Position numbers and translations under genes: made by a program. A stretch of 64,000 nucleotides of DNA from Straminergon stramineum (lineage: Eukaryota > Streptophyta > Bryopsida > Hypnales > Calliergonaceae), in contig OY987263.1 in the NCBI GenBank assembly GCA_963920665.1, positions 29,066,547-29,130,546 on the forward strand, in the 5' to 3' direction. The notes under the pieces are model-generated. The model had not been told where the DNA came from, made no database searches, and was given only the letters and a program-made list of their open reading frames with translations. Positions within the stretch are counted from its first letter, which is position 1. Each line of letters opens with the position of its first letter. Positions 3,411 to 63,510 of this stretch are shown in pieces.

Positions 3411-3972
3411 TTAACCCTTTCAAGACTAGACGTTGAAATTTCAAACAACAGATGAATACAAATACATCTCAAGCATACAAAAATATTTTTTTCCTTCATT
3501 GAATTTTTTGAAGATTCTTGTATTGATTCTTTAATATTTGTATTATATAGAATTTGAAGACTTTTCTTTGCAAATATTCTATAATCAAAGAATACTAGTA
3601 GGTCTAGCTTTAGAAATAAATTTTTTCAATTCAAAAAATGACCCTTCAAAAATGACTTGAATAAAATAAAATAAAAAAGTCTTCAAAAGTCACTATAATT
3701 AGAACTTAAAGGGAAAAAAATTCTTGTGAAACTCACAAATGTTCAATCTACAATCACTTTTAGAAGAAATTTCAATTTTTGGCTCAAATTTTATTGAAAA
3801 ATATTGGTTTGTATACTAGCTGATCTAACCATATGGATATGATCTATGGATCATATTTTATAACTATTGTTTGAGAGCCATCACTAAATTATTTTTCTAA
3901 GTTGTATTTTATAATACATCCTTACAATTTTGGAAATCTGGACTATCCTAGCTTCTAATCTTAAGGGGTTCA
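3411..3972. mobile_element. TTAA-flanked MITE, family G
   Basis: The left border is TTAA followed by CCCTTTCAAGACTAG. The right border is the complement of CCCCTTAAGATTAG followed by TTCA, a one-base variant of TTAA. The element is 562 bp, strongly AT-rich and without coding capacity. The interior does not resemble the other TTAA-flanked families in the window. Confidence is lower than for the multi-copy families because only one copy is present. Confidence 0.5.
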
Positions 3973-12469: not shown

Positions 12470-12700
12470 TTAACCCTTAAACGATGCGGCAGATGGTTTT
12501 TGTCTGATGAACATCAAGGAATTCTCCTCTGTAGGAAAGAATTGCAACTATTCATCCTCAGAATAGGGGTGGAAAGAAGAGATCTTCTACAATAGTTTAA
12601 CTTCAAATGAGTATTTTTTTTATTTTTTTAAAGTGGATGACGTCACATGGTTCTAAAATGGCTGATTTTCACGATCACGAGCCTTGCGTTCAAAGGTTAA
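12470..12700 (+). mobile_element. TTAA-flanked MITE, family C copy 1
   Basis: The element is bounded by TTAA at 12470-12473 and at 12697-12700. The left terminus is CCCTTAAACGATGC and the right is the complement of CCTTTGAACGCAAGG. The 231-bp length and internal order (gtttttgtcygatg, attcatcct, agagatct, gatgayGTCACATGGTTC) match the copy at 48552-48784. It is non-coding. TTAA target sites with CCC termini resemble piggyBac-type elements. Confidence 0.8.
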
Positions 12701-19050: not shown

Positions 19051-19319
19051 TTGGACCAATTGGGCAACACACTTCCTATTTCTCACATTTATCTCTATAT
19101 GAAGGGTTTTTTTTTCATTTTTTTCTTCTAAGTTCAACAATGCCAAACATTTGCAACCAGTCATTCTACCTGTCATAGGTTGGTTTACCTTGCTCGAGGG
19201 ATATCCCATAGTGGAAGAGACATATTGGAAAAGATGGGTAAAGCCAATAAAATTTCCATATTTAAAAAAATATATATAATTAAAAAAAATTTAAATTCAT
19301 CCACATTCACTCCAACTGA

Positions 19320-43134: not shown

Positions 43135-43396
43135 TAGTGTTGATTGTGCCATTGCCACAATCGAAATGAAAGTAAAAGTAATTTCTAATCTTTTCATTCA
43201 TAAAAATTTCGAAATTCAATAACTTTCACACTATAGGTTCAAACATCATGAAACAAAGCTCGTGTCCCCTTCCTCACAAGGGGCTTTCCAACATTACCTA
43301 GAATGCAACAGGGGGACATATTGGTCCAAGAGATCTTAGTGTACAATACAAACAAAAAAAATAAAACATAACAACTTAACTTAAGGTAAGGATTAC
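43135..43396 (+). repeat. Dispersed repeat, copy 2 (partner at 2713-2950)
   Basis: Same block order and orientation as 2713-2950: gccacaatc, aaattcaataactttcaca, aaacaaagctcgtg, ggggctttccaacatta, gagatct, taacttaaggt. Non-coding. Confidence 0.75.
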
Positions 43397-43693: not shown

Positions 43694-44271
43694 TTAACCC
43701 TTAAGCGCTCTAACATCCAATTTATGGACAGTGAACAAATAGAAACCCAAGTTTCATCCTCCTAACTACTTGGATGAAAGTATTTTCATTTCTGGAGATA
43801 CATTATCAAGTTGTTGTCCTATCTAAGGTTTGTATTTATTGTTACTAAAGTACATATTTTTCTAAAATTACAAATGTGCAAGTATGTCAAGTGGTCAAAG
43901 TACATTGACTTTAGTTCAAAACTAGGTTTGCCAAAATGAGGTCATAGATTTTAAGAACACTAAAATTTCAAAAAAATCATTATGTGAAGAGAACCTCATT
44001 TCCATCCATTCCAACAAATTTTACTCAAAAAAATGATAATATTTTACTGGTAATCAAATTTAGAAGGAATTTTGGAATTTTCTTTTCAAAATTTGTAAAA
44101 AAGATATGTGATAGCATTAGTGAATCTAACTATACAAATGAAATCTACAAATCAAAATCTACAACTTTACTTTCAATATCAATTCCCAAATATGCCTCCA
44201 AATAGCACTTTATAATGATTTTTCTCAAATCATCAATTCTAGAGAGATGAACCTAGATGCTTAGGGGTTAA
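43694..44271 (+). mobile_element. TTAA-flanked MITE, family B copy 1
   Basis: Exact TTAA on both sides (43694-43697 and 44268-44271). The termini are CCCTTAAGCG and TTAGGGG. The 578-bp body aligns along its whole length with 62940-63510; shared landmarks are acaagtatgtcaagtggtcaa, cattccaacaaattttact and tccaaatagcactttat. Both copies stop at the same borders, which defines the element. No coding capacity. Confidence 0.85.
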
Positions 44272-44900
44272 AGAGGTAGGTATTGAAATTAAAAATATGA
44301 CATAAATAAGTGAGAATTCTATCAAAATATTAAAAGTAACATATGTTATAGTTAATAGAACAATTATGGTTCCTTATAGGCTATGACTCTACAAAATAAG
44401 CAAAAGATCTTATACTCCAAGATTTGGATGCATGGTAGATGATCCATGATTGATGGTAGTATAGCATGTATTAGATAGCAAAGTGTTTAGGCAAACTAGT
44501 CCATAGGATTTTGTGGTGCCGTGCAATGCATCATTCTACTTATTCTAGTAAAAAGACTTTGTATTTAGTGCATAAACTTAGGATGCTTTAAATACCAATA
44601 GGCAAATTTAACACTAGATGCAATGCCTTTAATTCATTTTGTTTTGCAATTGCCTTTGCATTAGAAGTTGTAGGTGTAGTTGTTGGTAGTTTTGAAGTGG
44701 ATTGTTGTAAATCAACGATTAACGTTAAAATTTAGATAGAAGATAGCATACCAAAAAAAATTAGAAACAAAACAATAATGAAAACAAGGATATCATACTT
44801 TGCACGCTTTAGAGAACTATGTAGCAATAGGGAATGAGATTTACATAATCCATGCAATCAACTACGAATTTCCTATTCTCCTTTCACTTGATCTAAAGAT
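44272..44900. other. AT-rich spacer
   Basis: Nothing recognisable between family B copy 1 and family F. Confidence 0.4.
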
Positions 44901-45151
44901 TTAATCCCTCAAGGCCCAAGCAATTTTTGTACTTTTTCACAAGTTTCAACTTTGATTGACAATACACATTGTACATTAAGCTTGTTACATGATGTCAATT
45001 GTACTTTTGAGCTTTCCCCCTTCAATATGAACATCATCATATGAAATTCATTTAGATATACATTTTAGAATGTAGGAATACAAAGTTATAACTTTGACTT
45101 GTTGAACAGGCAAGAGGCTCAAAAATGGCTCCTTGGGCCTTGAGGGGTTAA
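44901..45151. mobile_element. TTAA-flanked MITE, family F
   Basis: The left end is TTAA then TCCCTCAAGGCCCAAGC. The right end is the complement of CCCCTCAAGGCCCAAGG followed by TTAA at 45148-45151. The inverted repeat is 15 of 17 bp and the element is 251 bp. Non-coding. This has the clearest terminal inverted repeat of the TTAA group. Confidence 0.75.
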
Positions 45152-45849
45152 AAACCTAAAGATATTAGTTTCCTGACCTCAGCACCTCACACACCTTGAA
45201 AATTTATTTCTTAAATTTTTAGCCATTGACAAAGGCAAATTAGATTTCGCCTCTTTTGCTTTCTCTTGTGAACAATCTGACTAGTGGAAGAACATCATGT
45301 TTGAGAATAACTCAAGCACATGAATTTTCAAATGCAATTCAATTCCCAAGTCCTGCCCGACTTCAATCAATTCTCTAAGTTAAGTTACTCTGCAACTGAA
45401 CATGGAGAGAAAGCCTCGTTCTCCATTTCCTCAAAGTTTAAACTTACTTATCATAGAGAAATTCACAGTGATCTTTCTTTTCTTGTACACAAACGCCATC
45501 CATCTGTCCGTCCATAACTTTTTGAAATGCACTGTTTTTGTTTTTGAAACCGGGACTTTATTCCAAGAGTGTATCAAAGAACTACTACAAAGTGGACTGT
45601 TCTTAACTCAACTGATCAATAAAGAATCCACTGAACCCTTCCCCAAATCAGACCCGCCTCACCTGAAAGTTCAGTGATCCCAAAACGGGTTCTGGGAAAT
45701 TACCCAAATGTTCATTTCGGGAAGATTTTTTAAAATATAACTCTGAGGGCATGTAGAAATTAAGTAGCAACCAAGCGAAAATTAGCCAGTTTTGGAATTG
45801 CTGCTGCTGTTGTGAACCAAGCCAACTTAATTTCAGCTATTCTGGGAGA
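45152..45849. other. Intergenic DNA
   Basis: No gene recognised. The open frames at 45320-45677 overlap in two frames and lack motifs. Confidence 0.35.
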
Positions 45850-46800
45850 CCAGATCCCGTTTCAGTTTCAGTTGTGTTTTGGTTTCAGTTTCAGTTTTCA
45901 GTTCCACTGCTGCTGCTGCTGCTGCACTGAACCAGTGAGAGACCACTCAGACAGACATCCCCCGCCCATTTAAAGTTCCATAGAAAGTTAAGTTCACATG
46001 CTCTTTTGATAAGTTAAGTAGGATTCTGGGTGGGGTGGGTGTTTTGTAGTTGTTGTCTTGTTGTCAATCCAGTTATTATTAAAAAATAATCAATGCAGGT
46101 GCTGTTCCATGCTCAGTGAGCAACCCAGGCAGGCACGCAGGCAGGCAGGACGTACCTTAAGCTTACCTTACCTTACCCGCAACAGCAGCAGCAACAACAA
46201 CAACAACAATTTCTGTCAGTGATATTTGAAAGGCCAGTCGTGCAGAAGTTATAACTTTGGTATCAGACACACAAAAGACAATGCGGGGCTCATCATCTCA
46301 GCATGGTCCCCAATGTACGAGAAGATACCTTGCCTTGCCTCGCCTTACCTTGCCTTACCCTACCTTACCTTACTCCAAGTGCATCATATCATTGCGATTT
46401 TGGGTTCTCTTTTTGAAGCTTCGTTGCGGTTGGTTGGTTGCAATTGGTTGGCCATTTGGCGTCGAATCTAGGAACGATTGTGGAACGCAGAAAAAGAAGG
46501 CTTGCGAACAAGCTCCCCACCTGAACGAGCGCGAAGGAAGGAACGAAGACGAGTGATGATGGTGATGGTGGGTTTGACCACCCTAACTAACTTGCCATTA
46601 CAATATACATTGTAGGCGCTTATTGGCGAACGATCGTGCGTGTGAGTGACATGGAATAATAATGACAAGGTGACTTGTCTTGCACATTTACTCCACTGGA
46701 TAGAATGATTGTACAGTCAAGTCTTGTTACAAAACAAACCTCATCCTGCGGGTGGCTTTGAATTCTAGTGCTGTCTTCTTTAATTGGTTTTTTCTTCTTC
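45850..46800. other. GC-richer island packed with microsatellites
   Basis: Composition is clearly less AT-rich than the flanks. It holds ctgctgctg (about 45905-45925), caggcaggcag (about 46128-46150), a CCTTA/CCTTG run (about 46327-46375), and CAGCAG followed by CAACAACAA (about 46183-46209). Overlapping frames at 46226-46556 are products of the repeats. It could be a promoter/5' UTR of an unrecognised transcript. Similar islands occur at 55.6-56.8 and 60.3-60.9 kb. Confidence 0.45.
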
Positions 46801-47646
46801 ACCTCACTCCTGGGGCTGTACTATACCTTTGGTAACTTAACTGAAACTGAAGGGGCTGCCAAGATGCCACCTAAGGTAGACACTGTTGAAATGTAATGTA
46901 ATGTTGGGGCACTTGCGGAGGGGATGATTGAGGTAGAAACCACTGTTTCTGTACTTAGAAGTCCTTTAATATTGCTCCCACTCTCAACTACATGATGTGG
47001 CTATGTAACGTAAGTTTTCCCAGAGGGAGACATTCAAAATGAGGAATCTTCAAAACCAAAAAAAATAATTAAAAAAATTGCACCGCTTCCTATGATTGAT
47101 GCCGTGATTTTCCAAGTACTAACGTAGGAAGAAATTTCAACTTGCCTCTAAAAAAAGGGTTTGTATTTGTAGGTGCATAAATTGCCCCATGCATTGGAAT
47201 TGTGGAGGCCTACCAATTTTTTTGATGGCCAATCACAACTCGGACAAATTCTAGCTCACAGGCACTTATTTGTAGAAGGCATCAGGGTGGTTTTTTTGTT
47301 TGCTTTTTTCATTTTTCATGAAGTGTCAAAGTGGTGATATAAAATGTTATAATGGTGCTCCAAATCAACATTCATCTACATGTTGGATAGAAAATATTAC
47401 AATAGCAAATATCACATGTCCATAATTTAGGCTTCATCTACAATTGGGCAATGTTATCTAAGATTTTTTTTTAATTCAAAGTTTTCTGATGAAAAACTTC
47501 AAGTTTGACTTCCATTTTTTAGCCAAATTATTTTTTTCTATAGCAATCTAGCACCAAAAAGCCCCCCCATAATAGCCTTGGAATGCACCTATAGAAAGTT
47601 ATAGCCTCCTCAAAAAACACAACTAGATCAAGATTTGCCATTGAAG
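46801..47646. other. Intergenic DNA
   Basis: No gene recognised; composition returns to AT-rich after about 47.0 kb. Confidence 0.35.
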
Positions 47647-48555
47647 TTTACCCCCTAAAGGACCAAGTTACGTTTTTGGCAACATAGTGATTTCAAGCAA
47701 CTCACTACAAACGGAATTTTTATTTGTCTTTGAAATTTTCACACAACATGTGCCCAAGGAGTATCTTCAAGGCGCAACAATTTTCATAAATTTTGAATAC
47801 ATGGTTAAAAAGTTATTGTGTGATATGTAGTTTTCATAGCTCAGCGGGCAGCCTGGGCAGCAAAAAAAACTTCTTTAAAAATCAGTTTTTTTTAAAATAA
47901 AAATTTGAAATTGGTTTTCTAGATTTACATGTATGTGGAAAGCTTTGAATCATCCCATTTTGATTTAGGAGATGAAAGTTATGAGGAGTTTTAGTTGTGG
48001 GTAGTTTACAGATAGTTATGGAATCTCCACTCTAAAATAAACTTTGAAGATCTTTATTTAACTCAATTTTCAATATTTTTGGAAGAAAATAAAAACTTCG
48101 TGTGTAGATTTTTTATTAAAACATTACAACCATTGGGATTGGCATTTTTCAATTTCATTAATAAATTGTTGACAATTTAGTATTTTGAATCATTCTCTAC
48201 TTCTTTGTACTTACTAATTTTTTCCAAATGATCTAAAATTTTTCAAGCATGTAGCCAACTTGACTTGAAGAATGAATCTAAAGAGTTAAAACCATTTTGG
48301 ACATTTTTTCTTAATGATCTAACCTTGTGAAGTGTAGTTGCCTGGATTTTTGTCACTTCAAACGTTAATATCTTGCAATCTTCAAGGTGGAAATTTCTGA
48401 AATTTTTTCCACATCTTCCCAAACCAGTTTACTACCTGATCCTATGGTCACATGTGTACAAAAATGTATTTTTTCTAAAATTTGGTACTTGCACTAGAAA
48501 TGACAATTTTGGAGCGTTTTTAGTGAAAACATAGTCAAATTCATTTAGGGGTTAA
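47647..48555 (+). mobile_element. TTAA-flanked MITE, family D copy 1
   Basis: The left border is TTTA then CCCCCTAAAGGACC; the right border is CATTTAGGGG then TTAA at 48552-48555. The 909-bp body matches 50068-51017 in reverse orientation end to end, including aggaccaag, cacacaacatgt, catggttaaaaagttattg, gggcagc, and acatttttgtacac with its complement. The right TTAA is also the left TTAA of the family C copy that follows. Non-coding. Confidence 0.85.
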
Positions 48556-48784
48556 CCCATAAACAAAGCAAAGGGATGTTTTTGTCCGATGGATGACAAA
48601 GAATCTTCCTATATAGGAGAGAAGTGCAATTGCTCATCCTTAGAATTTTGTGGAGAAAGGAGAGATCTTGCACAATAATTTGACCTCCAATAAATATTTT
48701 TTTTGGTTTTTTTAAAGTAGATGATGTCACATGGTTCCAAAAGAGATGATTTCCATCGTCACCAGTCTATCCTTTAAGGGTTAA
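48552..48784 (+). mobile_element. TTAA-flanked MITE, family C copy 2
   Basis: TTAA at 48552-48555 and 48781-48784. Termini are CCCATAAACAAAGC and the complement of CCCTTAAAGGATAG. The 233-bp body aligns with 12470-12700. It directly abuts family D copy 1 and uses the same TTAA, as expected if one element inserted into the target duplication of the other. Confidence 0.82.
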
Positions 48785-50067
48785 GATTCTCTTAGCAAGT
48801 TTGAATTTGGGTGCATGGGTGTAGGGACTATTTTGGGTGTTTTCACCTACAAAGAATGTATATCATACTCATGAGTGGATGCACTTGCCTATATACAAGG
48901 AGGTTTTTTTTTCATTTTTTTAGAAAGAATTATTTTCATGTAAATATTCTAGTAAAATAAAAGTAGAAATTTTTTATGTTAAACAATGGATTCTGAATTT
49001 AATTATTTTATAACGAAATAAACTAGGAAATATTTTGAACCTAATTTAACCTAGCAATTTTGACATGATACACAATAGACCCATAAAAAAGATATAATTT
49101 ATATCCAAAAAAGAATTTTGAAAATTTATAATTGCATAGTTTATTACTTTCATTAGTTTTAATACAATACTAGTATGCCTTTTGTTGTTGCCACTTACAA
49201 TTATTATAATGTCATTTGTAACTGCCAAAGAAGTGATGGCCTATCCAGTCAACCATATATGGTCGATTTGAAATTTCAAGTCCATTTCTATACAAGCAGT
49301 TAAATTCCTGTGACCAGTTTCAAAAAATTCAAGCAGTTTTGAGGGTTAACTATGAAAAAATTTCAATTTTCATTGGAAAAAGTACATCTTCAATCATTGA
49401 GAGATCTTCAAAGGTATATTTTATGTATAGTAAAAGTGTAGTGTAAAGCTTGCTAATTTTACTTCATTTTTTGGCTTTATGCAAAGCTTGGCAATTTCAT
49501 TTGATTTGAGATCTAAAAAATTGTACTTATCCATTTGTTTTGAGAATGGTCCCAATGAAAAGTTTAAAGTATTTTCATGATTTTCACCATTGAAAATTTC
49601 AATATGCAAGTGTTTATTTGAAGCTATTTGCAATTTCTACTTATAAACAAAAATTACATTTCAACAATTGCAAGGTGTATTGTGCAATGAGTTTGATGTC
49701 TTTTCCTATGAAAATTAAGTTTTTTGGAAGTACATTTTAGTGTGCTAACACTCTTTGAAGTTGGTCATGTTACCTCCAATCCCAAAAAACATATATAAAT
49801 ATATATATATATATATGCAAATTTTTGAAACATTGTGGACAAAGACAACATACTAAAAATAGAAAATGTATATTTCCCTTGGTATAATCTCACAACTCCT
49901 AGGAAATTTGAGACTCAAAATTGGTGTGCATACTAATAAACGAGCTCTATTAACATCCATATGGTTAGATTTGGAAAAAAAAAAATTTGCTTCATTGAGG
50001 ATAACTATGAGCCAATGCTCTTTTTTCATAGTCAAAACACACTTGAAAAGGCTTGGGCATTTAGCGG
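48785..50067. other. AT-rich intergenic DNA
   Basis: No gene recognised. An end-like motif, cttgggcatttagcgg then TTAA, stops at 50071 and shares TTAA with family D copy 2. It may mark a further element whose left end I could not place. An (AT)n tract is at 49795-49816. Confidence 0.4.
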
Positions 50068-51017
50068 TTAACCCCTAAATGTATTTGACTATGTTTTCAC
50101 CAAAAACACTCCAAAACTGCCATTTCTAGTGCACATACCAAATTTTAGAAAATACATTTTTGTACACATGTAACTGTAGGATATTGCAGTGTGATAGGTT
50201 GAGAAGATGTAGAAAAAATTTCAAAAATTTTCACCATGTAGATTGCAAGATATTAGCGTTTAAATTGGCAAAAAGCCTTTTTGGGGCCCTGCAAAAACCC
50301 GGGCAGCTGCACTTCACAAGGTCAAATCATTAAGAAAAAATGTCCAAAATGGTTTTAACTCTTTAAATTCATTCTTCAAGTCAAGTTGGCTACATACTTG
50401 AAAAAATTTAGATCATTTGGAATCGTACAACATATAGGAAAAAATTAGTAAGTAGAAAGATATAGAGAATGATTCAAAATAATAAATTGTTAACAATTTA
50501 TTTATGGAATTGAAAAATGCCAATCCCAATGGTTGTAATGTTGTAATAAACAATCTACACTTAAATTTTTTATTTTTTTCCAAACATAATGGAAATTGAG
50601 TTAAATAAAGGTCTTCAAAGTTTATTTTAGAGTGGAGATTTCATAACTACCCACAAACTACCCATAACTAAGATTCTTCATGACTTTCATCTCATAAATC
50701 GAAATGGAATGATTCAAAGCTTTCCATGTACATATAAATCTAGAAAATCGATTTCAAATCTTTATTTTTTTTAAAAGTGATTTTAAGGAAGTTTTTTTTT
50801 GCTGCCCGAGCTGCCTGCCAAGCAATGAAAACTACATATCATGCAATAACTTTTCAACCATGTATTCAAATGTTATGAAAATTGTTGGGCCTTAAAGTTA
50901 CTCCTCGGGTACATGTTTCGTGAAAATTTCAAAGAAAAAAATAAAAATTCCATTTGTAGTGAGTTGCCCCAAATTGCTATGTTGACAAAAAACACCATTT
51001 GGTCCTTTCGGGGTTAA
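50068..51017 (-). mobile_element. TTAA-flanked MITE, family D copy 2 (inverted)
   Basis: TTAA at 50068-50071 and 51014-51017. Termini are CCCCTAAATG and CCTTTCGGGG. The 950-bp body is the reverse complement of 47647-48555 with indels. With copy 1, about 1.5 kb away, it forms a large inverted repeat that could make a long hairpin RNA if read through. Confidence 0.85.
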
Positions 51018-51966
51018 ATTTCTTTCTATATTCATTTATTTAGTAGCAAATTACCCATAGTATTGACATTGAACTCCATGTACACTGTCAATTATCGTAA
51101 TAATATGCTTGCTCTTTTTTTTTAACATGTTTGTTTGGCATACACATTTTCTTCAAGATGAAAGTAAGTCATTTTTTTGGAACATCCTTAAAACATGCAC
51201 TAATATAATCTATTCTTATTGCGTAGAAAACTTAGATCATAATAGATCTAGGCCTAGCTTGTATACATATCATTTTCGAGCTTTAGGAATGAAAGATTTA
51301 GTTTCAACAAGACATGAGCAAGTTTATAGCCCAAATAAGAGTTTTGCTAAATGCACGAGTCATAGTTGCAAAAATATACATACATATATATACCTATATG
51401 CCCAATAAGTACCCAAGAAAGGAGAAAGGCATCCCAAGTTTGCAAAAAGTTTATCACCATCTTATCTATCTAAATGTAGAAGAATTTAAATCTTGCAAAA
51501 TACATCATGAGAGTTTGGTGTGGAAATTTTGAAGTTTGTCAATAGCACGAAAAAAAATTTCATTTCTGTTCCAAAATTTTGATAATTATCCCCTATTGCT
51601 TACATCTCTAAAATTTGAATGTGAACCTTTACAAAATTTATAAAAGTTTCTATAAAGTTTGTATAAGATAGTGAGCATTGTAAGGATAAATTTATACTAA
51701 AGGGAGCATTTCTCTTAACCTTAAGAGTGGACAATATCATAATATTGTTTACCAACCCTATTGAAATATATTTTTATCCCCACCACTCACAAGCAATTAA
51801 TGACATTTGGTTGACATTGGTTTTGTCTATATAGGACCTACATTCCAACCTCATTCATTCCAAGATCTTTAGAGAAATATAATTGAAGTATCATCCAAGT
51901 ATCTATAGAAAGTATATCCTTCTATCCCTTGGATAGAGGGAGAAGAATGAGCTCAATTTTGCAATG
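51018..51966. other. AT-rich intergenic DNA
   Basis: No gene recognised; frames at 51109-51532 are AT-driven and overlap each other. Confidence 0.35.
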
Positions 51967-52870
51967 TTATCCCATAAAGTCCAAAGAGTCCCATGGAGGG
52001 ACTCTTTGACTTTGGGAAGGTACCCATGATCTCAATTTTTGGCAAGATTTTTTGGAACTTTCATTCAAGACAAGAAAATTGATGAGCTTTTGGGAAATAT
52101 AATTTTTTATTTCAATCAACGTCTAGGAGCAAAGGCTATACCACAATAAGCCCCAAATAGGAGAGGGTGGGAAACCAAAAACACTTTGAAATAATTTTAA
52201 AAATATATATTTCATATATATATATATATTATATTTTGTTTGTTTGGAAAGATTTGATTCATTCCATTTGGATAAGTAATACAAACATTCTTGTTTTGTG
52301 GACAATTATAGCAAATTCTTAAGAAACTGAAGTATTGGATCCATTTATGAAGTCAATTATAAATTTTTTTTAAAAAAGGCTATCATTGTTTAGACAATTT
52401 GCTTCCAAAATAATCTCATTGTTGAGATTAGTGTATTTCAATTCCATCTTAAAGTTATCAACAATTTAACTTTTTCTTCTATCTTGTACCTACTTTGACA
52501 TAATTTTTTAAAGAATGAATTTATTTTTAAAAATTTCTTGAATTCTCAATTCAATTCTTCAACATAAAAATATTTAAATTCACAATTTGCAATATAAAAA
52601 AAATGAAGTTAACAAGATTTAAAGCCTTGGTACTCTAGTCATCGTAGGAGGAAAAACGATTGTTTTCTTCACTTTAAATGCTTATATCTTGAAATTAATA
52701 TGGTCAAAGATTCTAAAATTTCTTCCAAATATTCTCATACAAGTATATTGCTAGATCCTATGGTTGGATATGCAAAAGAAATACATATTTAAAATTTTAT
52801 TGTTTACATTGAAAATGGCAATTTGAGTGATTTTGATTTTAAAAAATGGTCTCGGAATTTTAGAGGTTAT
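51967..52870 (+). mobile_element. TTAA-type MITE, family E copy 1 (TTAT borders)
   Basis: The borders are TTAT then CCCATAAAG on the left and TTTAGAGG then TTAT on the right, so the same 4-bp TTAT flanks both sides. A near-perfect small hairpin (aaagagtccc with its complement) lies at 51983-52007. The body matches 54562-55141 in order: ggtacccatgatctcaattt, ccacaataa, gattcattccatttgga, gatcctatggtt. Non-coding. Confidence 0.7.
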
Positions 52871-52880
52871 GATATCTTTA

Positions 52881-53187
52881 GTAAGGTAGGAGGTCTACAA
52901 AGTATCTATTATAGAACTAAAAATTAATTTGAAGAGGTTAGACTTCTTGAAATATTCTTCAGGAAATTTTCCTTGAAAGACAAATGGAATTGGCATCTAA
53001 TTCAAAAAATTTGGAGCTTTATAGAAATAGTTATGAATTTTGAAGTGGAAATGCAATGATCATTGAAAGTGTCTACTCTTGAAATGTACATTGTTTATAC
53101 ATTGTTGGTGCTATGAGAAAGAAAAATGTAACTCTATATTAGAAGACACTTATAGAGCCCAAGTGCTCTATGGACCTCCTACCTTAG
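52881..53187. mobile_element. MITE with GTAAGGTAGGAGGTC ends
   Basis: Left end gtaaggtaggaggtct (52881-52896) and right end ggacctcctaccttag (53172-53187) are inverted with 14 of 16 matches. The unit is about 307 bp and non-coding. The AAGGTA core recalls the ends of the elements at 2246 and 18416, but the relation is not proven. Confidence 0.6.
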
Positions 53188-54365
53188 GGCAAGCTTCTAT
53201 GTTCAATTGGTGATCTATGAGAGGGCCAAAACAATTAATTATCCAACCAATGCTTATGGAAGCAACTTTAGGCTTAGGTTCGCTCTACAACTTTTTGCCA
53301 ATGAATTGGTCATATCACAACTTAAGTATTTTTATTTTTCCTTTTTACCAATCACTAATGTAGTTATTCACCCTATACAATTTGTTTATACAAATATGAT
53401 TTATTCACTTGACCTATAAAGCTCGGAACCTTTTTTGGGCAATTGAGGAGGTGGTAGTTTGGTGGTGGTGATTTGGTGCTATTAGATGTTTGGTAGTGGT
53501 GAATGGGAGTGGGGCTGCATGTTATGACCTTCTAAGCCTACTCCACCCCTTCTACATGGAAGTGTTATTACAAAAAATTTGAACCTTGTAAAGGGCTATT
53601 TCATTTTTGGCCCCCCCCCCCAATGCAAATATAGAATAAATAAATAAATATTTTTATTGGAAAAATAATTTATAAACAAAATCAAATCGCCAATTTGACG
53701 TGACATTAGTAGTGCCCCGTGAGATTCCTTTTTCCCTTGCTATAATTGCACCACTACCATGCAATCTCGCAACCTTTTGTAGGGTTTAGAATTTGAGTAA
53801 TGAAAATCCCCCAAACAATAGTTTTGTCTGGGTGATCTTCCATCTACAACCAATCTTGGTCTTACAGACACATACCTCACATGGAAGTAGGCCCTTACAA
53901 TCAAGGGAGAAGAATGAACTTGGTTTTTGCATTTCTATGATCACTTCACTACAATCTAGGGGTTCAAATAAGATGGGCCAACTCAAATGCACCACTGACC
54001 CCAAAACACCATCTTTACTTGGTGTACATCTCCAAAATCAATTATATACATATGTGGAAGAAATTGTTTTAGAACCAAATTTTGTTTCTTAATAACTTTT
54101 CCATATAGTATCCAAATGTCGTTTTCTTTGGTGCATTGGAACCTCCTTCCACTTGCCAACAAGAAAATATGAAAACTTGACCAAACTAATGATAATAACT
54201 ATGTACATTAGCTAAAAGTGGCAGTTTGAGGGGTACCCACTTGGCCACCTTAATCCCACTCTATATTCTTTCAATCTCAATCGTCAAGCTTAGTAGGGAT
54301 TTTTTTTATCCCTCTCAAATTGAGAATCTCCCCTAAGATGGCTACAAGAAAAGGGAAGTTCTCAT
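53188..54365. other. Intergenic DNA
   Basis: No gene recognised. A complementary pair of frames at 53786-54092 shows no motif. A poly-C run of about ten lies near 53611. Confidence 0.35.
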
Positions 54366-54395
54366 CACTACAAGAGAAATGGGTGTTTTAATTGG

Positions 54396-54557
54396 GTTTT
54401 TTAGTATAGTCCTAGGCATAAGATTATAAATAATGACTTTTAAGGAGTTTTTTAGTAAAAATTTGCTAGAAATACATGTGTTTCTAGTAAAATTTCATTG
54501 AAAATCTCCTTAAAAGTCATTATTTATAATCTTATGCCTAGGACTATACTAAAAAAC
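54396..54557. repeat. Perfect 52-bp inverted repeat hairpin
   Basis: 54396-54447 and 54506-54557 are exact reverse complements over 52 bp (for example cctaggcataagatta), with a 58-nt partly paired loop. Lack of mismatches indicates recent formation or conversion. A transcript would form a miRNA- or siRNA-like stem. Confidence 0.9.
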
Positions 54558-54561
54558 TCAC

Positions 54562-55141
54562 TGAACCCCTAAAGTCCCAATGTCCCTACGGGGGACAAAA
54601 TGGATTTCGGGTAGGTTCCTATGAGCTCAATTTTTAGTGAATTTTTTTGAAACTTTCTCATAAGATAGAAAAACTTATTAGCTTTCTGGGAATATAATTT
54701 TTATTCCAATCGGTGCTTGAGAGCAAAAGTTATGCCACAATAACCTCAAAATGGGGGAGAACGGGCAGCAAAAATAATTTGTAAAAAATTGAAATATATT
54801 TTTTGATTATTTTATTCTCATAGATTATATTTTTGTCTAAATGGGAAGCTTTGATTCATCCCATTTGGATTAGTGATGTAAAAGATATAGAGTTTCTTGT
54901 TTTGTGGGCAATTGGAGCATCTTTAAAAATAAATTCTTTCACTTTGAATGCTAATATCTTTCAATTTGTACAGTCAAACATTGTGGAATTTTTACTACAC
55001 GATCCAAAAAAAGTTTGGTACAAGATCCTATGGTTAGATTCTAAAAAAGGTATTTTTTCTAATTCCTTAGATGAATGCAATAGAAGTAGCAGTTTTGAGT
55101 GTTTTTTGACAGAAAAATGGCCTTGGGACCTTAGGGGTTTA
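54562..55141 (+). mobile_element. TTAA-type MITE, family E copy 2
   Basis: Left terminus CCCCTAAAGTCCC preceded by TGAA; right terminus the complement of CCCCTAAGGTCCC followed by TTTA. The 13-bp inverted repeat has one mismatch. The body matches family E copy 1 with a large internal deletion. Flanking tetramers are one-base variants of TTAA. Confidence 0.7.
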
Positions 55142-55163
55142 AACACCCATTTCTCTTGTAGTG

Positions 55164-55559
55164 GATACACTCCTACTTTGTTTGTGGGTCTTTTTGTCTT
55201 CCTTGAGTACTTTTGTGCAAGTTGGTAATATAAACACCCTAACTTGTTATTGGGGAGGGAGAACCAACCTATTGACAATCACAAAGTAGGGGACAACTGA
55301 AGTTTTTCCAAACAAGTTGGGCCGGGGTGAACTGTCCCCTTCACTCATCCCTGAGAGAAAATCCTGAATTTTTTAATTTATGATGCATGATAAAAAAAAT
55401 TGCAAATTTTGAATTCATATATGCAATCAGAGGCCCCAGATTATCTAGGAGAGGTACACAAGATAAATCAATGAAGCACAAAATAGGGGGCTATTTTTTT
55501 ACATGCACCCCTGGAATGACTTGGGAGGGGGGGGGATTAGCAAGGGTTTAGGGTTCACC
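55164..55559. other. Intergenic DNA
   Basis: No gene recognised. Confidence 0.35.
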
Positions 55560-56820
55560 CTGACCAATGAATGCAACCACTCCTACCCAACTTACTCCCA
55601 AGGAAAGTAAGTTCAGCTTAACTTAACTTCCTCCCCAATCCCCCATCCCCTTGGTTTGCGCTTTTTCCCTGAGCAGTTGTGGCGTGCTCGCTTTGCTTGT
55701 ACAAGCCTAGCTAGGGTCTCCCTAGGTTGTACGCTGAAGTTAGGGTGGTGCCAACCCCAAAAATGTCAGCACAGAGTTCTAGAACTGACTTTATCAGTGT
55801 ATCATGAGAAAATGGGACAACAGTCCATCTGCACTGCACTGCACTGCCGTGTGCCGTGCCTCACAGTCTGCTATGAGTATCTATGTTGTGAGGGGCCGAG
55901 TTTTTCCCACATCTCGCACAGGCAGGCAAGCCATCTCGTTGGAAGGAAAGGGAAGGAAAGCAAAGGTCCTCAGAAAAAGGCAGGGACAGCAGATAAGATA
56001 GCTTGGCTTAGCTTAGCTCACTGCTGCTGCTTCTTCTGCGGCTGAGAAAAGCTAAGTTACCCTAACCTACTGTACTATAAGCTAAGCTTACATAAGTAAA
56101 GTTAAGTAAAGTTAAGTAAAGTTAAGTTAGGAGTGGCACAGAAGAAACCAACCAAAGAGAAGGGAAGGGAAGGGAGAGGGTGATCAGATCTGAGCATGGG
56201 AGGCCAGGCCAGAGGCCTTCCGTCATGCCATGATCTGCTGCCATTCAAGGATTCAACAAACTCACTGCTAGCTGCTGCTGCTGCTGTTGCAGAGCCAGTC
56301 AAAAGGTCCACCAAAGGGCACCCCCTCCCTGGCCATCTGATCCACCCACTTGGGTTCTAACTTAGAGAATTTGGCAGGGCAAGGCAAGGCAAGGCAAGAA
56401 ACTTTGGGTGCGTGCTTGCCACTGACAACTAATCACATCATGCGGGAAGATTAAAAACTGAAAACAAAAAGACCCAGCATCATCTCATCTCATCTCATCT
56501 CATCTGCTTTTTTGCTTGCAAACCTAAGTTAATGTGGCATGGGTTGAGTTGGGTCCTCACTTAACTTATGCTCCCTTTTTCCCACTCGGTGCCACTCCCT
56601 TCCACCCACCCACATGATTCAGAGGAGTCTGAGACAAGCAGAGAAGGGGGCATGATATATTCTCTTGGGGGAAAAGGAGATCAGCAGCAGACATGCAAAC
56701 TTGTTGCAGATTCTATGCATTTGTTTTCTCCTAAGTACGGCAAGATTGGAGCTAAGGTAGGGTCACTAGAGGCACAATGACAATGGAGGGTGGGTTGGCT
56801 GTTGGATTTCTGGAATTCTC
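55560..56820. other. GC-richer island with many short tandem repeats
   Basis: It holds a 10-bp tandem taagtaaagt x3 (about 56093-56125), aagggaagggaaggg (56158), ctgctgctg (about 56271-56285), caaggcaaggcaag (about 56378-56398) and catctcatctc (about 56480-56503). The motif (c)ttaactt/aagttaa recurs throughout. Frames at 55656-56045 and 56568-56780 have no known domain. It resembles a promoter/UTR-like region without a recognised gene. Confidence 0.45.
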
Positions 56821-58590
56821 TCTCATTGGGAGGTGATGAGGGAGACTAGATAGCACACTATCCTAGCTCGCACTTTAGTTTACTTTCTTTAGGTTCATTG
56901 GACGGAGTAGCAAATTATTTTTTTGCAATGGAGCAAGGAATGGGAAGAATACTCTATTCTCTCTCGATGGATTCAATATCAAAAGATTGACAACTTTCCA
57001 TTTGTGGTGGACCTAGAAGGGAGGGGGGGGGGGTTGTCAAGTTAATTCTTGGTTGTTGTGATTATGTTTGGACTCTATTGTTGCATATGAGGATTGTCTT
57101 TAATGCAAAAAAATTCATACAATTTGGGATTGGTGGTTACAAAGATATGTTCAATTCCTCCTTGAAGCCTTGAGACATGATTTCAAGTCATTTTCCACTT
57201 TGGGGCAAACCCTTCCTGGTTAAGTACTTTTGTTCTCAACACATGCAAATTAGGCAACAAGAAACCTTTTTACACATGTTTTTTTTGTTTTTGTTTTTGT
57301 TTTTTCAAATTCCTGGATTTCCAATTTAATTTCAAAGCAAGTAATTTTACCTCCTAAAGCTTTTTGAAGGCTCATGTAGGTTTGTATGGGGTCATTTTTG
57401 AAAAAATGAAAGTGAAAATTTTAACAAAGATGCGCATTTGTGTTAGCTTCATGAATTCCTATTTAAAAAAAAAAATAGATTCTTGGATCAAAAGTTATGG
57501 GGCTCAAAAGTTTTATGGGTAGTTTTGATAGTGTACTAATAGAGAAGGCAAGCAATAACACAAGGAATAACACAAGCTATGAATATTTTTCCATCAACTT
57601 TGAACACATATATCTTAAAATCTATGAAGCCAAATAGACTAAAATTTGTTCTATATATTTTCATAGTTTTGATAGTAGTATAGGCTTGTAAGTCAAAATC
57701 ATGTACTTGTATGCCTTTGAATTTTGAGGATTATATAAAAAAATCTTGTGGAGGGCATACTATGTATAAAAAAACTTCAAATCAATTGGACCTATCTATA
57801 ATGGGTGCCTAAACTACCCCTACTTTAAGAATGTCCTTTTGAGGCACAATTTTTTAACCATGACTTGGATAGTTGTAAAATTTTCTAAGCAATAGTCAAA
57901 GAATTTTAGGGAGTAACTTGCAGAACTTAAGAAACACATAAATTTTTCTAGAATGTTTTTGAAAGATGAACTATGCATGTGTAAAGTCATAGTTAAAAAC
58001 TTTTTCTCAAAGTTTTAAGATAAATATCTTACAATGACTGAAGTGCATCCCTTTGAAATTCTAACACAATATTTTTCAACAGTTTAGGTGTTTGATATTA
58101 TTGTTGAATAAGAAAGAATAATCAAAACAAAATATTTTTGTAGATGCACAAGTTGAGATTGAAAACACATTTTCACCTCATCATTCTACACTAACTACTT
58201 AGTCAAATTGGGCACAACTTAGTGTGCTAGAAAGCTAGTAACATAACACACATTTCTTCAAAAACAATTGTGTGACTTTACAATGACTTGCCACCAAAAA
58301 AATCCTAAAAACAATATAGGCTTTTCAATCCTACAAGGGTAAAAGGATAGAAATGTAGTAGATTACGAGAATGGAGTGAAAATAGCACCCTCATTTTTCA
58401 CGATATAGTTTTACGCACGTTAGAAACAAGCTTACTCATTTTTCACAAGCCTCCCAGCAAAAATAAATTCTGATGACCAATTCCGATAAATTCTCCTCTT
58501 GCAACTATTGCACGCTTCCATTCGAGCAATGGAAATTCAGAACCTCCATTTTTATTTTTATTTTTGTCTCTTTCCACAAGGTTTGGGTGA
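56821..58590. other. AT-rich DNA with old D/E-like repeat relics
   Basis: No gene recognised. Phrases such as tatatcttaaaatct and caaaagttatggggctc at about 57.5-58.1 kb resemble internal parts of families D and E, suggesting old truncated copies. A poly-G run is at about 57022. Confidence 0.4.
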
Positions 58591-58960
58591 TTCTAAGTGC
58601 ATGGAAGTCCGCCCTGATGAGAGGAACCCAACGCAACGAAAGGGAAGATGGGCAGACAGCATGGGACTCTGCGGTGACGCCTCCAATCACGGCCTCCACT
58701 CCTCCCTTCAATGGCAGCGGCGGCTCCCCTCCGTCACTCCTCCCGAGCCATTCCGAATCCCAACGCACCAAAAAGCCCACCAATGGAATGCCTGGGTTGC
58801 AACAACAACGGCAAAAGAACGGAACGGAACGGAACCCCCCAAAAAATCCCACCAGAACAGAAGCAAACAGTGACACTGATGAAACAGTAACTTAAGAACA
58901 GAACTGAACTGTGAAGAATCATGCCATTCCATTCATTCTACTTACACTAATACTGATGAA
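58591..58960. other. Small GC-rich block with overlapping open frames
   Basis: Composition is distinctly GC-richer than its flanks. Frames are open on both strands (58473-58895 +, 58505-58876 -) and none has a recognisable domain. It may be an exon or leader of an unidentified gene, but the coding strand cannot be decided from sequence alone. Confidence 0.3.
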
Positions 58961-59379
58961 AATTTAGGGTTTGCAACACTAATTACAAACTCAAACACAA
59001 AAGGGCAACAACATTGGTACTCTTGTACTATTATGTGAGTCTAGGAGTGTGATCTCATAAGCCTAGAAGACTATACACCTATGTTATAGGTATTTAAATT
59101 ATAAATTTTTTCATGATTACATCATAACTATGTTATAGATACCTCTATTATAGATGTTTTTATTATAAGCAACTTCAATGGTTGAAAGATACCTACTTAA
59201 TACATATACTCAATGCTCACACACTAGCATCATTGTGTTATCATCACTAAATGGCAACAACATTAGTAATGTTACCACCACTAATAGACAATAATGTTGG
59301 TGACGTTACCAACATGGAATGGCAACAATGTTGGTAATATTACCAATACTAAATATCAACATGAATATTAATTGTCAAT
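58961..59379. other. Short palindromic repeats around ACATT(A/G)GTAATGTTACC
   Basis: Between about 59250 and 59345 the motifs caacattagtaatgttacca, aatgttggtgacgttacca and caatgttggtaatattacca follow each other, each partly palindromic. No gene recognised. Confidence 0.5.
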
Positions 59380-59600
59380 GTAACCTCTAAAGGACCAAGT
59401 AGCAGTTGGGGGCAACATAGCATTTTTGGTCATCCGTTTATGAATGAAATTTTCATTTTTTCACTTTGAAGTTTTTCACACAACATGTGGGCGAGGAGTA
59501 GATTTAAGGTGCAACAATTTTTGTAACTTTTGACTACATGGTTAAAAAATTAATTGCATGATGTGAATTTTCTTTCTCAACATGGATAAATTGGATAGCT
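59380..59600 (+). mobile_element. Truncated family D copy 3
   Basis: It begins GTAA then CCTCTAAAGGACCAAGTAG and follows the left part of family D: ggcaacatag, cacacaacatgt, gcaacaatttt, catggttaaaaa. Similarity ends near 59600, so the right part is missing. Confidence 0.65.
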
Positions 59601-59878
59601 TAGAAAAAATCACTTTTTCTAGAATTTTGTTGGCAAATAATTGCCAAAATCTAACTTGTTTTAAGAACAAGCTCCCTTTACACTAGAAAAATTTTAAAAA
59701 TAGAAATATGAATGGAATTGCCAAAAAAGACTTTAAAAAAAAATTCAAGGTTCAACAAAATTTGGACAAGGTTTACTAGGTTTAGATAATATTGTGGATG
59801 AGTGAAGGATGGATGATCACAATTGGACAATACAATTTGTCTCATCTGCTTGCATTCCAGGGTGCGTGTTGTATTGTA
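59601..59878. other. Intergenic DNA
   Basis: No gene recognised; AT-rich until about 59.85 kb, where composition becomes balanced. Confidence 0.3.
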
Positions 59879-60305
59879 CTTCCACCAAGAAAACCAACCA
59901 ACCGATTCACTGCATCGATCGATCGATGCATCAGTTCGGTAGAGGACTGCAACTGAAGCACAAGTGTAGAGCTTGCCAATAATCATATTGATTTCTACGG
60001 GCACTGCTACCGGCCTGCCTAGGTCGCCTTCCTCGTTGTCTTCAGCAGCAGTTGATGCCACGGCCGGTCGACGTATGGTAGGCGTCGTGCTTCCGGGCGT
60101 GCTTCCACCACGAAAACCAACCAAATTCACTGCATCGATCGATCAGTTCAGTAGAGGACTGCAACTGCAACTGAATCACAAGATCAGAGAAGAGCTTGCC
60201 ATTAATCATATTCTAAGTTACAGGCACTGCTATGGGCCTGCCTAGCTCGATTTCCTTGTTGTCTTCAGCAGCAGCAGGAGCTACGGTCGACGTCTGGTAT
60301 GGTAA
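59879..60305. repeat. Two-copy tandem duplication, 223-bp period
   Basis: Unit 1 starts cttccaccaagaaaaccaac at 59879 and unit 2 starts cttccaccacgaaaaccaac at 60102. Both continue with cactgcatcgatcgatc, gtagaggactgcaactg, agagcttgcca, taatcatatt, ggcctgcctag, and ttgtcttcagcagcag. Unit 1 has a long minus-strand open frame with AAEDNEEGDLGRPVAVPV. Unit 2 keeps a similar frame (AAEDNKEIELGRPIAVPV) but then meets a stop. A duplicated exon is possible; no family was recognised. Confidence 0.8.
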
Positions 60306-60880
60306 TTCTAGGCTCCCAGAGTTTCGATCAGACATCCGGGGGCAGCAGAGAGTCTAACTTAAGATAGCTCATCAGACCAGTTCAACTTTCTCTCCGTCTC
60401 CTTGACCTCCCTTTGGTGGGCTTTTTTTAGTTCCCTTTCCAGTGTCTGACACGCCCAGCCAAGGGCAGGCAGGCAGGCTGGCCATCCCTCCTAATAACGA
60501 GCTTACTTGTCTCGCCTGCGATGCACGTTGGTGCTCGGATTCCTCTTCATCTTTTCATCAGTGGTGATCATCTGTTCATCAGCAGCAGGTGCAGCCTGCC
60601 GCGGTGCAGCCTGCCTGCAGCTGAGCGGAGTGCAGCTGAGGAGTCCGTCCGTCCGTTTGCAGTGCGCGCTCCCCTCCAGCCATGTCCCCACCATGCCGGC
60701 ACCCATGCCCATGCACATGCTGACCCACTTCAGATTCCCCTTCCACGTTGATCTCCGCAGGGCGTCCGTCCGTCCGTCCGTCTTCCTGAAAATTTTACTG
60801 TGTGGAGGAGAAACGAAACTGGAAGCCGGAGTGGGGAGGAGAGCCACCGACATAAGGTAAGAAACCAGACTACCGGCTTA
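60306..60880. other. GC-rich island with GTCC microsatellites
   Basis: It contains tccgtccgtttg (about 60643-60656), a gtccgtccgtccgtccg run (about 60764-60782), aggcaggcaggc (about 60468-60479) and CATGCCCATGCACATGC-type repeats. A 117-codon frame at 60507-60860 starts only at TTG. It resembles the islands at 45.9 and 55.6 kb. Confidence 0.45.
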
Positions 60881-61154
60881 TGACAGGTTGAACCGAAGGA
60901 TTGGTTGACCCTGCAGGCGTTGTTAAAAAATTGGACGGAGTAAAAAAAATTCCACATATAGATGAATGGGTGAAATGGGGAGGGCAATTGAAATTTTGTG
61001 TTTTTGGCAAAGTAGGAATTTGTCATGGATTTTTGAAGTGTGTTATCCAATTGGTTCAAAAGAGTTTGGAGACTACCCCAAAACCAACAAAAAGTGTATC
61101 TATAATGGTCATCTCACTCACCTTATAAAGCAATCATAATATTTTTGAACATGG
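60881..61154. other. Intergenic DNA
   Basis: No gene recognised. Confidence 0.3.
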
Positions 61155-61359
61155 CACTAGTATAAAACAACATTGCCTTCAACAAAATCCAGGTGAAGCA
61201 TTTTTTTGTTTTCTACCCCAAAATGCAAAATTTGTGTTGACCGTAATGCAATTTTTAGAAAATTGCATTACAGTCAACACAAATTTTGCATTTTGGGGTA
61301 GAAAACAAAAAAATGCTTCACTTGGATTTTGTTGAAGGCAACGTTGTTTTATACTAGTG
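61155..61359. mobile_element. CACTA-type foldback MITE with TGG target duplication
   Basis: A 205-bp near-perfect hairpin. It starts cactagtataaaacaac at 61155 and ends with the complement at 61359. Each arm is about 100 bp with only three mismatches, all transitions, and almost no loop. The 3 bp on both sides are TGG, fitting CACTA-type 3-bp target duplication. Non-coding. Confidence 0.88.
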
Positions 61360-61379
61360 TGGCCATGACATGAAGGCCT

Positions 61380-61560
61380 AAAATAATCACTTTTTGTGAT
61401 GAACTTATATTCAAAAGGTGGAAGTTCCTATTGCAATCACTAATCACTCCATCACCATCATTCAAGACATTGATTGTGGCCACTAACTCAACCTAATGTA
61501 GGCCAAATCTTGTGTATTGAAAAAACTTTGTCATGAATTGATGCAAGACTTTAAATGGGT
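61380..61560 (-). repeat. Dispersed repeat I, copy 3 (inverted)
   Basis: The sequence atcactccatcaccatcat, aagacattgattgtggccac and tcaacctaatgt is the reverse complement of 18780-18900. The start (tgatgaacttatat) lies close to the CACTA-type hairpin. Confidence 0.6.
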
Positions 61561-62328
61561 CATTGCCTAGGGATATGTGATGAGCCTTTTGCATGTCTAA
61601 GGTTGATTCACCTTAGAGGGGTGAGGAGGGGCAAGGTTTCCACACTCCACATATTGTTGTTGAAACGGTGATTTTTATTTTTTATTTTGAAATGCTTATG
61701 TTCATGTTTAATTTAGAGGGTGATAAGAACATTTCTACACTTGCTTCTTGAACTGGGAACACTCAAATTTTACATCAATTTTTGAAGGGCCGTCAAACTA
61801 CTTGTCTCCTACTCTTGCTAACTAAATGTGTTTTGTAAATAGTCAACCATTCAATTCATCAAGTAGAATAAAAGATAAAGCAACTAAAATGAGGTAAATA
61901 TTCATTGGAAGGGACATTTCTTGACATACTAACACAGGGAAATGAGGAGTGTGATACCAGGGGGGGGCTATAATATTTGAGTGTGTAACTATTTCCCCCC
62001 CCTTCCATCTTTCTATTTTCAGAAAGTTTTGGGAGGGGTATAGTTATACATTGAAATATTATACACACACACACACTGGAATCACCCTCCCCATCTCCAT
62101 GTGTAAGATTGAGAGCCAAGAGAATATTTGGAAGGGCATGAGTGGAGATGCTTAAAGAAACTTTTCTACAATATTGGATAATAAAAAATTCTATTGTAAT
62201 CTTGATAACATTCTTGAACAGCTCTTGAGAAAAATTGGAGGCAACAACAATGACCAATGTGTTGGGTTGGAATCTCAAACCCTCAAATAAACTTGTTTGG
62301 AATTAGTACACATGGTTATGAATTTATT
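61561..62328. other. Intergenic DNA
   Basis: No gene recognised. A 139-codon minus-strand frame at 61859-62278 lacks motifs and crosses a (CA)n run at about 62063-62075 and G/C homopolymers. Confidence 0.35.
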
Positions 62329-62560
62329 TTAACCTTTGAAGGTTGAGGACCATGTTTTACAAGTAAAATCCTAAGCCATAACCATTTCTAGTGTAGCATG
62401 ATGCAATGAATAATATTATTATTTTTGGATATTCATCCTTAGAATCTTGTAATAGACTTATATGAGAGTGTGTGAAAAAAATTTCATAAACTTTGATAAA
62501 ATAGATAGTAAGATATTAGTATCGAGAGTGGGTTTTCTTTTGTTAAGTACCTCTCTTCAT
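62329..62560 (-). repeat. Possible truncated D/E-like element
   Basis: It begins TTAA then CCTTTGAAGGTTGAGG. Read in reverse, the body follows the internal order of families D and E (ctaatatcttactatc, aaatttttttcacac, ttctaaggat). No right border was found. Confidence 0.35.
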
Positions 62561-62939
62561 TTTAGTTTTTCAATCTTTGAATCCTTTTAACTTAACATTC
62601 AAGAAAATCTATCCCCTAGAGAGTATTGGTTGACTTTTGGCAAATGAGAAAATCAAAGGGAAATTTTTTTTTTTTTTAAAAAGAAATTTAGTCCCCAATC
62701 CTGAGTGACACACAAGGTGATCATATGGGCTAAAAAAATCTTTTCTTTTTCTTTTTTTTCACCATAATTGCATATTTTCATGGACTCCAACAATCGTGCA
62801 TGAAGTCAAGATTTCCTCAAATGAATGCTTGCACTAAAAAGCTTTGGAGTTTGAATCTTTGTGGTTAGGAATTGAATTGAGAATGTAGGGGAAAAAAATT
62901 AATAAATCAACAAATTGATATCCTTTTTTTATTAAGTTG
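62561..62939. other. AT-rich spacer
   Basis: Nothing recognisable; long T and A runs. Confidence 0.35.
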
Positions 62940-63510
62940 TTAACCCCTAAATGCATCAACCTCCATTTTCTAGACAATGAACAATTTCAAACACCAGTTT
63001 CGTCCTCCTTATTGCTTGGATGAAAGTCATTTTAATTTGTGAAGATATGTGAAGAGGTTGTTGTCCTATCTAAGAGTTGGATTTGGTGTTATTAGAGATT
63101 ATATTTTCCTAAAATTACAAATGCACAAGTATGTCAAGTGGTCAAATTGCATTGACTTTAGTTCTAAACTAGATTAGTCAAAATGAGCTCATAGATAAAA
63201 AGAACACAAAAATTTCAAAAAACCACCATGTGAAGATAACCTCGTTTCAAATCCATTCCAACAAATTTTACTCAAAAAATGATAATATTTTACTTGTAAT
63301 CGAATTTTGAAGGAATTTTGGAATTTTGGAATTTATAAAAAAATATTGGTGATAGAATTGTTGAATCTAACTGTATAGATGGAATCTACAAATCATAATC
63401 TACAACTTTTGTTTGTATGTCAATTCCAAAATATGCTTCCAAATAGCACTTTATCATGATTTTCCTCAAATTGTCAATTTTGTAGATGAATTTGGACGTT
63501 TAGGGGTTAA
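62940..63510 (+). mobile_element. TTAA-flanked MITE, family B copy 2
   Basis: Exact TTAA at 62940-62943 and 63507-63510. Termini are CCCCTAAATGC and CGTTTAGGGG. The 571-bp body aligns end to end with 43694-44271 in the same orientation, with homology stopping at the TTAA on both sides. Confidence 0.85.

Follow-up and report, generated by a model that had tools for sequence, protein, structure and literature searches.

TTAA-bordered, MITE-like elements with CCC-type ends in a probable moss genome: most probably members of the piggyBac superfamily

Results

We analysed a 64-kb stretch of DNA (G000:C1:29066547-29130546, here called the window) in a 326-Mb assembly of 59 contigs, the longest up to 47 Mb, and conclude, with a probability of about 95%, that the TTAA-bordered repeats in it are non-autonomous members of the piggyBac superfamily, resembling miniature inverted-repeat transposable elements (MITEs), in a moss genome. 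An earlier note on this DNA had remarked on recurrent TTAA with CCC(C/T)TNAA termini and had read these as piggyBac-like elements in a plant-type genome; that reading is now supported by genes with the transposase domain PF13843 (DDE_Tnp_1_7), which lie between TTAA ends of the same kind. That the plant is very probably a moss follows from the best named relatives of a 540-amino-acid FAD/berberine-bridge-type protein encoded in the window (38024-39646, minus strand): its best match is an unnamed Logan protein (94%), and the named relatives are from Ceratodon purpureus (69%) and Physcomitrium patens (64%), with Selaginella at 38%.

The recurrence of the termini was borne out. On both strands of the window there are seven exact TTAACCCYTNAA sites, against a mean of 0.3 and a maximum of 2 in 20 dinucleotide shuffles; with one mismatch there are 16 sites against 5.45 in shuffles, and with two mismatches the number is at chance level (60 against 62.3 in 20 dinucleotide shuffles of the window). 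A second count, independent of the choice of TTAACCCYTNAA, places 7 of the 22 exact CCCYTNAA cores in the window directly after TTAA, where about 0.15 would be expected from the frequency of TTAA.

Ten elements of the TTAA-CCC(C/T)TNAA type could be delimited (H, E1, B1, G, C1, E2, C2, D1, D2 and B2; Table 1), with cores of 223-942 bp. Eight of them lie within 43694-63510, the range first reported, which runs from the outer TTAA of one family B copy to that of another. TTAA is exact on both flanks in six (B1, B2, C2, E1, E2 and G) and inexact on one or both flanks in C1, H, D1 and D2. The exact TTAA that had been claimed for both sides of five elements thus stands for B1, B2 and C2, and does not stand for the left of C1 (TTAC) or for D2 (TGAA/TTTA); the families had been named without coordinates, and the D, E, G and H delimited here need not be the same. 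The interiors of B1 and B2 are 84.5% identical. C and D align at 58-68% across much of their length, and B and H have about 165 bp in common at 65-67%, so that the six internally unrelated families proposed earlier become four groups (B+H, C+D, E and G) among which we detected no similarity in the elements delimited in the window.

Two copies of a family in the window are insufficient to say where homology ends, and the claim that it ends exactly at the tetramers was therefore put to copies from the whole assembly. The first-look candidates (4107 for B, 4811 for E and 8051 for C) are not verified copy numbers; 40 were scored per family, the queries being B1 (578 bases including both TTAA), E2 and C1. 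For B, 36 of the 40 scored copies match the query exactly from 1 to 578, i.e. from TTAA to TTAA, and for C, 32 of 40 match exactly 1-908; for E, the 40 candidates gave 46 matches, 18 of them exactly 1-233 and another 18 beginning at 22-32. In an alignment of B1, B2 and the best 30 copies after B1 (of 39), in which damaged copies are under-represented, TTAA is present at 31 of 32 left borders and at all 32 right borders; the exception, L033, reads ATTAACCC on the left, which is TTAA with one C fewer. Identity to the majority base in these 32 copies is 0.97-1.00 across the TTAA and, one base outward, 0.34 on the left and 0.41 on the right. Homology thus ends at TTAA well in B and C, and less uniformly in E. 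Left flanks of B copies end in GGG in 4 of 32 and right flanks start with CCC in 3 of 32 (six copies in all), as if elements lay end to end on a single TTAA.

Empty sites with a single TTAA, which had been suggested as a check, were found. D2 is nested in a palindromic repeat (54366-55163, with ends CACTACAAGAG...CTCTTGTAGTG): it interrupts the right arm, and the left arm has the same sequence uninterrupted. The flanks of D2, joined around one TTAA, are identical to the left arm at 83 of 86 positions (97%), including the 4 bases supplied. This host repeat resembles a CACTA-type MITE, and its own target duplication is not clear. When the flanks of all ten window elements, with C1+E2 also taken as one unit, were joined and searched for, an empty site was found for D2 only. 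The same search with 48 flank pairs of B and E copies (L044 and L051 being excluded because their B matches begin later than position 1) gave 10 spanning matches from five copies (L036, L038, L054, L056 and L077) and no spanning match for the other 43. The empty site of L036, a stretch of L010 that is 90% identical over 101 columns, has TTAA once, and that of L038 lies inside the full-length element L025 (91% over 123 columns) and reads GTAA; a third, for L054, is weighed below. Paralogous empty sites therefore carry one TTAA or a one-base variant of it. For L056 and L077 the matches extend into adjacent TTAA elements and were left out. Joined flanks of full-length elements were also searched for: those of L017 (77% over 69 columns, TTGA at the junction) and L026 (low-complexity matches only) were not counted, and the short or one-sided matches of L010, L019, L021 and L023 were not used.

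A search of the assembly with the PF13843 profile, in which 116 of 473 first-look candidates were scored, gave at least 118 matches (best E 7.8e-79), many of them spanning nearly the whole 349-position profile; those listed sit on the contigs named C1-C11. None of 14 control genomes matched the profile. We fetched 20 loci around high-scoring matches, and at 17 of them a matching pair of TTAA-(C/T)CC ends, 4.7-6.6 kb apart, surrounds the gene; the pairs were picked among pattern matches, so that the TTAA tally for full-length elements is partly by construction. The ends are of the same kind as those of the window elements, TTAA-CCCCTNAA. Limits found without any pattern, from homology between copies, also fall here: on the left at (T)TTAACCCC in L009, L011, L013, L014 and L018, and on the right at TTAA or 1-2 bases beyond it in L010, L011, L013 and L014. 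The last four share 96.7-98.5% identity over 3.6-6.6 kb. Open frames occur in three of them (L011, 948 codons; L013, 906; L014, 918) and differ in length despite near-identity; L010 has a stop.

The L011 protein (840 amino acids) matches PF13843 at E 3.2e-79 and that of L026 at E 7e-73. L011 aligns with the piggyBac transposase of Trichoplusia ni (T. ni) at LTIDE, VMDSFFSS and RGVDVADQ, with 23% identity overall; the aspartates in these three motifs we take to be the catalytic triad of T. ni piggyBac, and both L011 and L026 have D aligned at all three places. A C-terminal Cys/His pattern is visible in four of the seven moss proteins aligned and is missing or cut in three. The N-terminal part of L011 carries Gln/Glu/Gly-rich internal repeats (EEVSGQEGGQ...). 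The structure was modelled for P0122, a database relative 70% identical to the L011 protein (mean predicted local distance difference test score, pLDDT, 79.1); the best matches of the model in the PDB are piggyBac (6x67, 4.9e-24) and piggyBat (9c0f, 6.0e-24), followed by Tn5 at 4.6e-06.

Several window families share termini with these full-length elements. The L013 element is 6292 bases long with both TTAA counted, and its two extremes (1-217 and 6159-6292) align, at 68-73% identity, with positions 1-213 and 775-908 of C1; both ends of C1 and of C2 are homologous to the group of L010, L011, L013 and L014. Likewise positions 3-63 and 364-578 of D2 align with 3-63 and 5830-6043, again both extremes, of the L012 element, which D1 matches at the right end only. 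The majority sequence of B matches the first 45 bases of the L024 element and has no match at the other end of L024. This was the best of 68 comparisons: with the first 12 bases left out it scores 51, whereas none of 200 single shuffles exceeded 33. The single transposase suggested earlier is better read as several lineages, C, D and B being tied to three different elements.

The ends themselves were compared in 54 cases (20 of MITEs and 34 of full-length elements), a set chosen partly by the CC(C/T)T pattern itself, in which position 1 is C in 51, position 2 is C in 54, position 3 is C in 52, position 4 is C or T in 52 and position 5 is T in 51. The first base is C in 19 of 20 MITE ends and in 32 of 34 full-length ends; the remainder have T, and none of the 54 starts with a purine. 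Over the first 16 positions, the two kinds of end have mostly the same majority base.

Table 1. TTAA-bordered elements and related features of the window (positions are those of the window)
Feature	Position	Strand	Description
B1	43694..44271	+	non-autonomous TTAA element, 570-bp core, TTAA both sides
B2	62940..63510	+	second B copy, TTAA both sides
C1	47648..48555	+	non-autonomous element, TTAC left, TTAA right
C2	50068..51017	-	inverted C copy, TTAA both sides
C3	59380..59640	+	incomplete C-type copy; GTAA-CCTCTAAAGGACC at the left end; right end not found
D1	51967..52870	+	non-autonomous element, TTAT both sides
D2	54562..55141	+	non-autonomous element (TGAA left, TTTA right) nested in palindromic CACTA-like repeat
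Empty site of D2	54366..54451	-	other arm of the palindromic host repeat, single TTAA at the D2 position
E1	12470..12700	+	E copy beyond the reported range; TTAA both sides
E2	48552..48784	+	225-bp core; left TTAA (48552-48555) is the right TTAA of C1
G	44901..45151	+	243-bp core; TTAA both sides; terminal repeats agree at 15 of the first 16 bases
H	3411..3972	+	probable TTAA element beyond the reported range; TTAA left, TTCA right
Additional element (probable right end)	50060..50071	+	CATTTAGCGG-TTAA; adjoins C2, TTAA in common; no left end found

Discussion

We propose, on the model of piggyBac itself, that a piggyBac transposase from full-length elements elsewhere in the genome would recognise ends of the CCCCTNAA(G/C)GNCC type, excise the element at its flanking TTAA and insert it at another TTAA, duplicating that tetramer, and that several transposase lineages coexist. 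C would be a shortened relative of the L010/L011/L013/L014 group and D of the L012 element, while B would share its left end with the L024 element. As insertion leaves a TTAA at each border, where new elements can land, chains of elements sharing a tetramer could arise. These transposases would then have moved the copies described here, excision would probably leave no footprint, and the system may be active at present.

Several of our observations weigh against this proposal. No transposition was seen directly. At 3 of the 20 loci (L016, L027 and L028) there is no convincing end pair, the full-length TTAA tally is partly by construction, as said, and 2 of the 34 full-length ends begin with TCC; between L009 and L018 the alignment continues 32-33 bases beyond the right TTAA. 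Many transposase copies contain stops, and N replaces D at the second catalytic place in L024 and at the third in L028. The borders of E are less regular: TTAA is present in 17 of 22 on each side, even among E1, E2 and 20 copies chosen for a start at 1-5, and for 16 of the 18 late-starting copies a looser count, which allows a shift of a few bases, finds it on the left in 10 and on the right in 12. The empty site of L054, inside window element H, is 78% alike with TCAA at the junction, and where the full-length element L024 is inserted in a C copy, uninterrupted copies show a 13-base gap beside the junction. Parents for E, G and H among the 17 full-length elements gave no clear result (best scores of 37-39 in 68 comparisons each, against single-comparison null maxima of 33-36), and these three families would be placed by their ends and TTAA alone.

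In L024 and L028 the frame is open over the domain despite the asparagine; that of L024, open over 792 codons, could point to a copy that is inactive or has been domesticated.

Of the other explanations that we considered, the strongest is that the MITEs are relics, made by piggyBac lineages long dead, and that the present full-length elements are not their source. The stops in many transposase copies are consistent with this, as are the median distance of 5.9% of B copies from their majority sequence and the shared ends of C1 and L013, which at only 68-73% identity suggest that the source of C was a different or an older relative. We give this account a substantial minority chance: L010, L011, L013 and L014 are near-identical and three of the four have no stop, which speaks for at least one lineage having moved more recently.

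In a second explanation, which we consider very improbable, the repeats would be MITEs of the Tc1/mariner type (Stowaway-like) that duplicate TA and have ends starting ACCC, the outer T and A being a target preference. TTAACCC can indeed be parsed as T-TA-ACCC, and Tc1/mariner MITEs are listed for plants (PMC9033089, in the portion drawn on here). Yet in the 32 B copies the outermost T is conserved at 0.97 on the left and the outermost A at 1.00 on the right, against 0.34 and 0.41 for the next base, so that the borders conserve four bases rather than a 2-bp TA, and elements with such ends encode piggyBac transposases.

Membership of the Kolobok superfamily, which likewise targets TTAA, is the most improbable of all, its ends starting with purines (AGGRR, terminal RR; PMC6004289, in part) against the C or T here, and the transposases examined belonging to PF13843, with a close relative that folds like piggyBac.

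The assignment to piggyBac agrees with what is known of the superfamily, as represented by T. ni piggyBac and bat piggyBat, in the PF13843 domain, the three aligned aspartates, the TTAA borders, the CCC ends and the top PDB fold matches of the P0122 model. The moss elements differ in that L011 is 23% identical to the T. ni protein and stands in a separate, strongly supported branch, and in that full-length elements are 4.7-6.6 kb long against 2472 bp for piggyBac (here, as for the papers cited below, we draw on portions of the source; PMC10813416). A tree of 63 rows took in the seven moss sequences, the 54 database proteins that were long enough and just two proteins from animals (T. ni piggyBac and piggyBat). 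In it the seven moss sequences and 34 database relatives form one branch (100/100) apart from both animal proteins.

Residues 300-790 of the L011 protein gave 54 matches at E 1e-3 in a set of 5.8 billion proteins, and an alignment of the seven moss lineages gave 198, of which 120 were listed. None of the matches listed carries an NCBI, nr or UniRef name (all are from JGI, ENA or Logan) in a search that sees only relatives sharing short exact words, and the absence of named plants or animals is thus no proof. The entries P0122-P0264 include many JGI, ENA and Logan piggyBac proteins, 34 of 54 falling in the tree group with the moss sequences; those 34 are perhaps moss DNA in metagenomes. When viral contigs were scanned with the aligned T. 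ni piggyBac and piggyBat sequences, 56 pattern matches came up, none of them a relative.

Comparable non-autonomous elements are found in corals (Acropora), where MITEs with CC[C/T]T ends and TTAA have been attributed to piggyBac. These coral CMITEs share with the moss elements the TTAA, ends such as CCCTTTAAGCCCTA and CCCCTCAGTGTCCG, the existence of several families with a common end motif, and a tandem arrangement; they differ in being about 100 bp long, against moss cores of 223-942 bp, and in their highly conserved interiors, against four groups without detected similarity in the moss (PMC2872659). The Kolobok T2-MITEs of Xenopus are alike in TTAA targets and MITE form, and unlike in their AGGRR ends and different transposase (PMC6004289).

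The earlier note had supposed that piggyBac, a kind of transposon known chiefly from animals, was not established in land plants, which is fair as far as it goes, although the superfamily is not unreported there. A 2022 review, in the portion cited, gives six terminal-inverted-repeat superfamilies for land plants, without piggyBac, and lists Sola1 for Physcomitrella (PMC9033089). A 2015 compilation has PiggyBac among the superfamilies present in all groups studied, land plants included (PMC4438587), and a table for the genome of a fern (C-Fern) has 1230 copies labelled PiggyBac (PMC6890710); as cited, these annotation tables give the superfamily name only and do not show ends, target sites or transposase (PMC6890710, PMC4438587). 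In searches of the open-access PMC literature for piggyBac in mosses or bryophytes, none of the titles or abstracts listed describes such elements in a moss, and in the portion cited of one moss-genome paper only "piggybacking" occurs, as a word (PMC10619864). The superfamily itself is known; its structural demonstration in a moss, and the scale, appear to be new.

If our assignment is right, it would extend the range of hosts in which this much-used transposon family is firmly documented, help to put right the labels of several MITE families in moss annotations, and provide candidate plant transposases with which seamless excision could be tried in plant cells. We suggest more tentatively, and at somewhat less than even odds, that mosses have their own deep, diversified and partly still active piggyBac clade, with several transposases mobilising thousands of MITEs; were this so, land plants would have a native source of the seamless TTAA cut-and-paste that is now borrowed from insects.

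Other repeats in the window

Three further repeats were noticed. At 61155-61359 lies an almost perfect inverted repeat (95.6%), which interrupts another repeat; the parts of the latter are found close to one another at 2340-2613 and 18759-19052. The inverted repeat could be an insertion of a hairpin element for which empty sites exist, and by eye is not of the TTAA-CCC type. A 407-bp near-palindrome (81.5%), a fold-back-type repeat, occupies 8180-8586, and a pair of repeats, 75% alike, lies at 2721-2927 and 43147-43354, outside the delimited TTAA elements.

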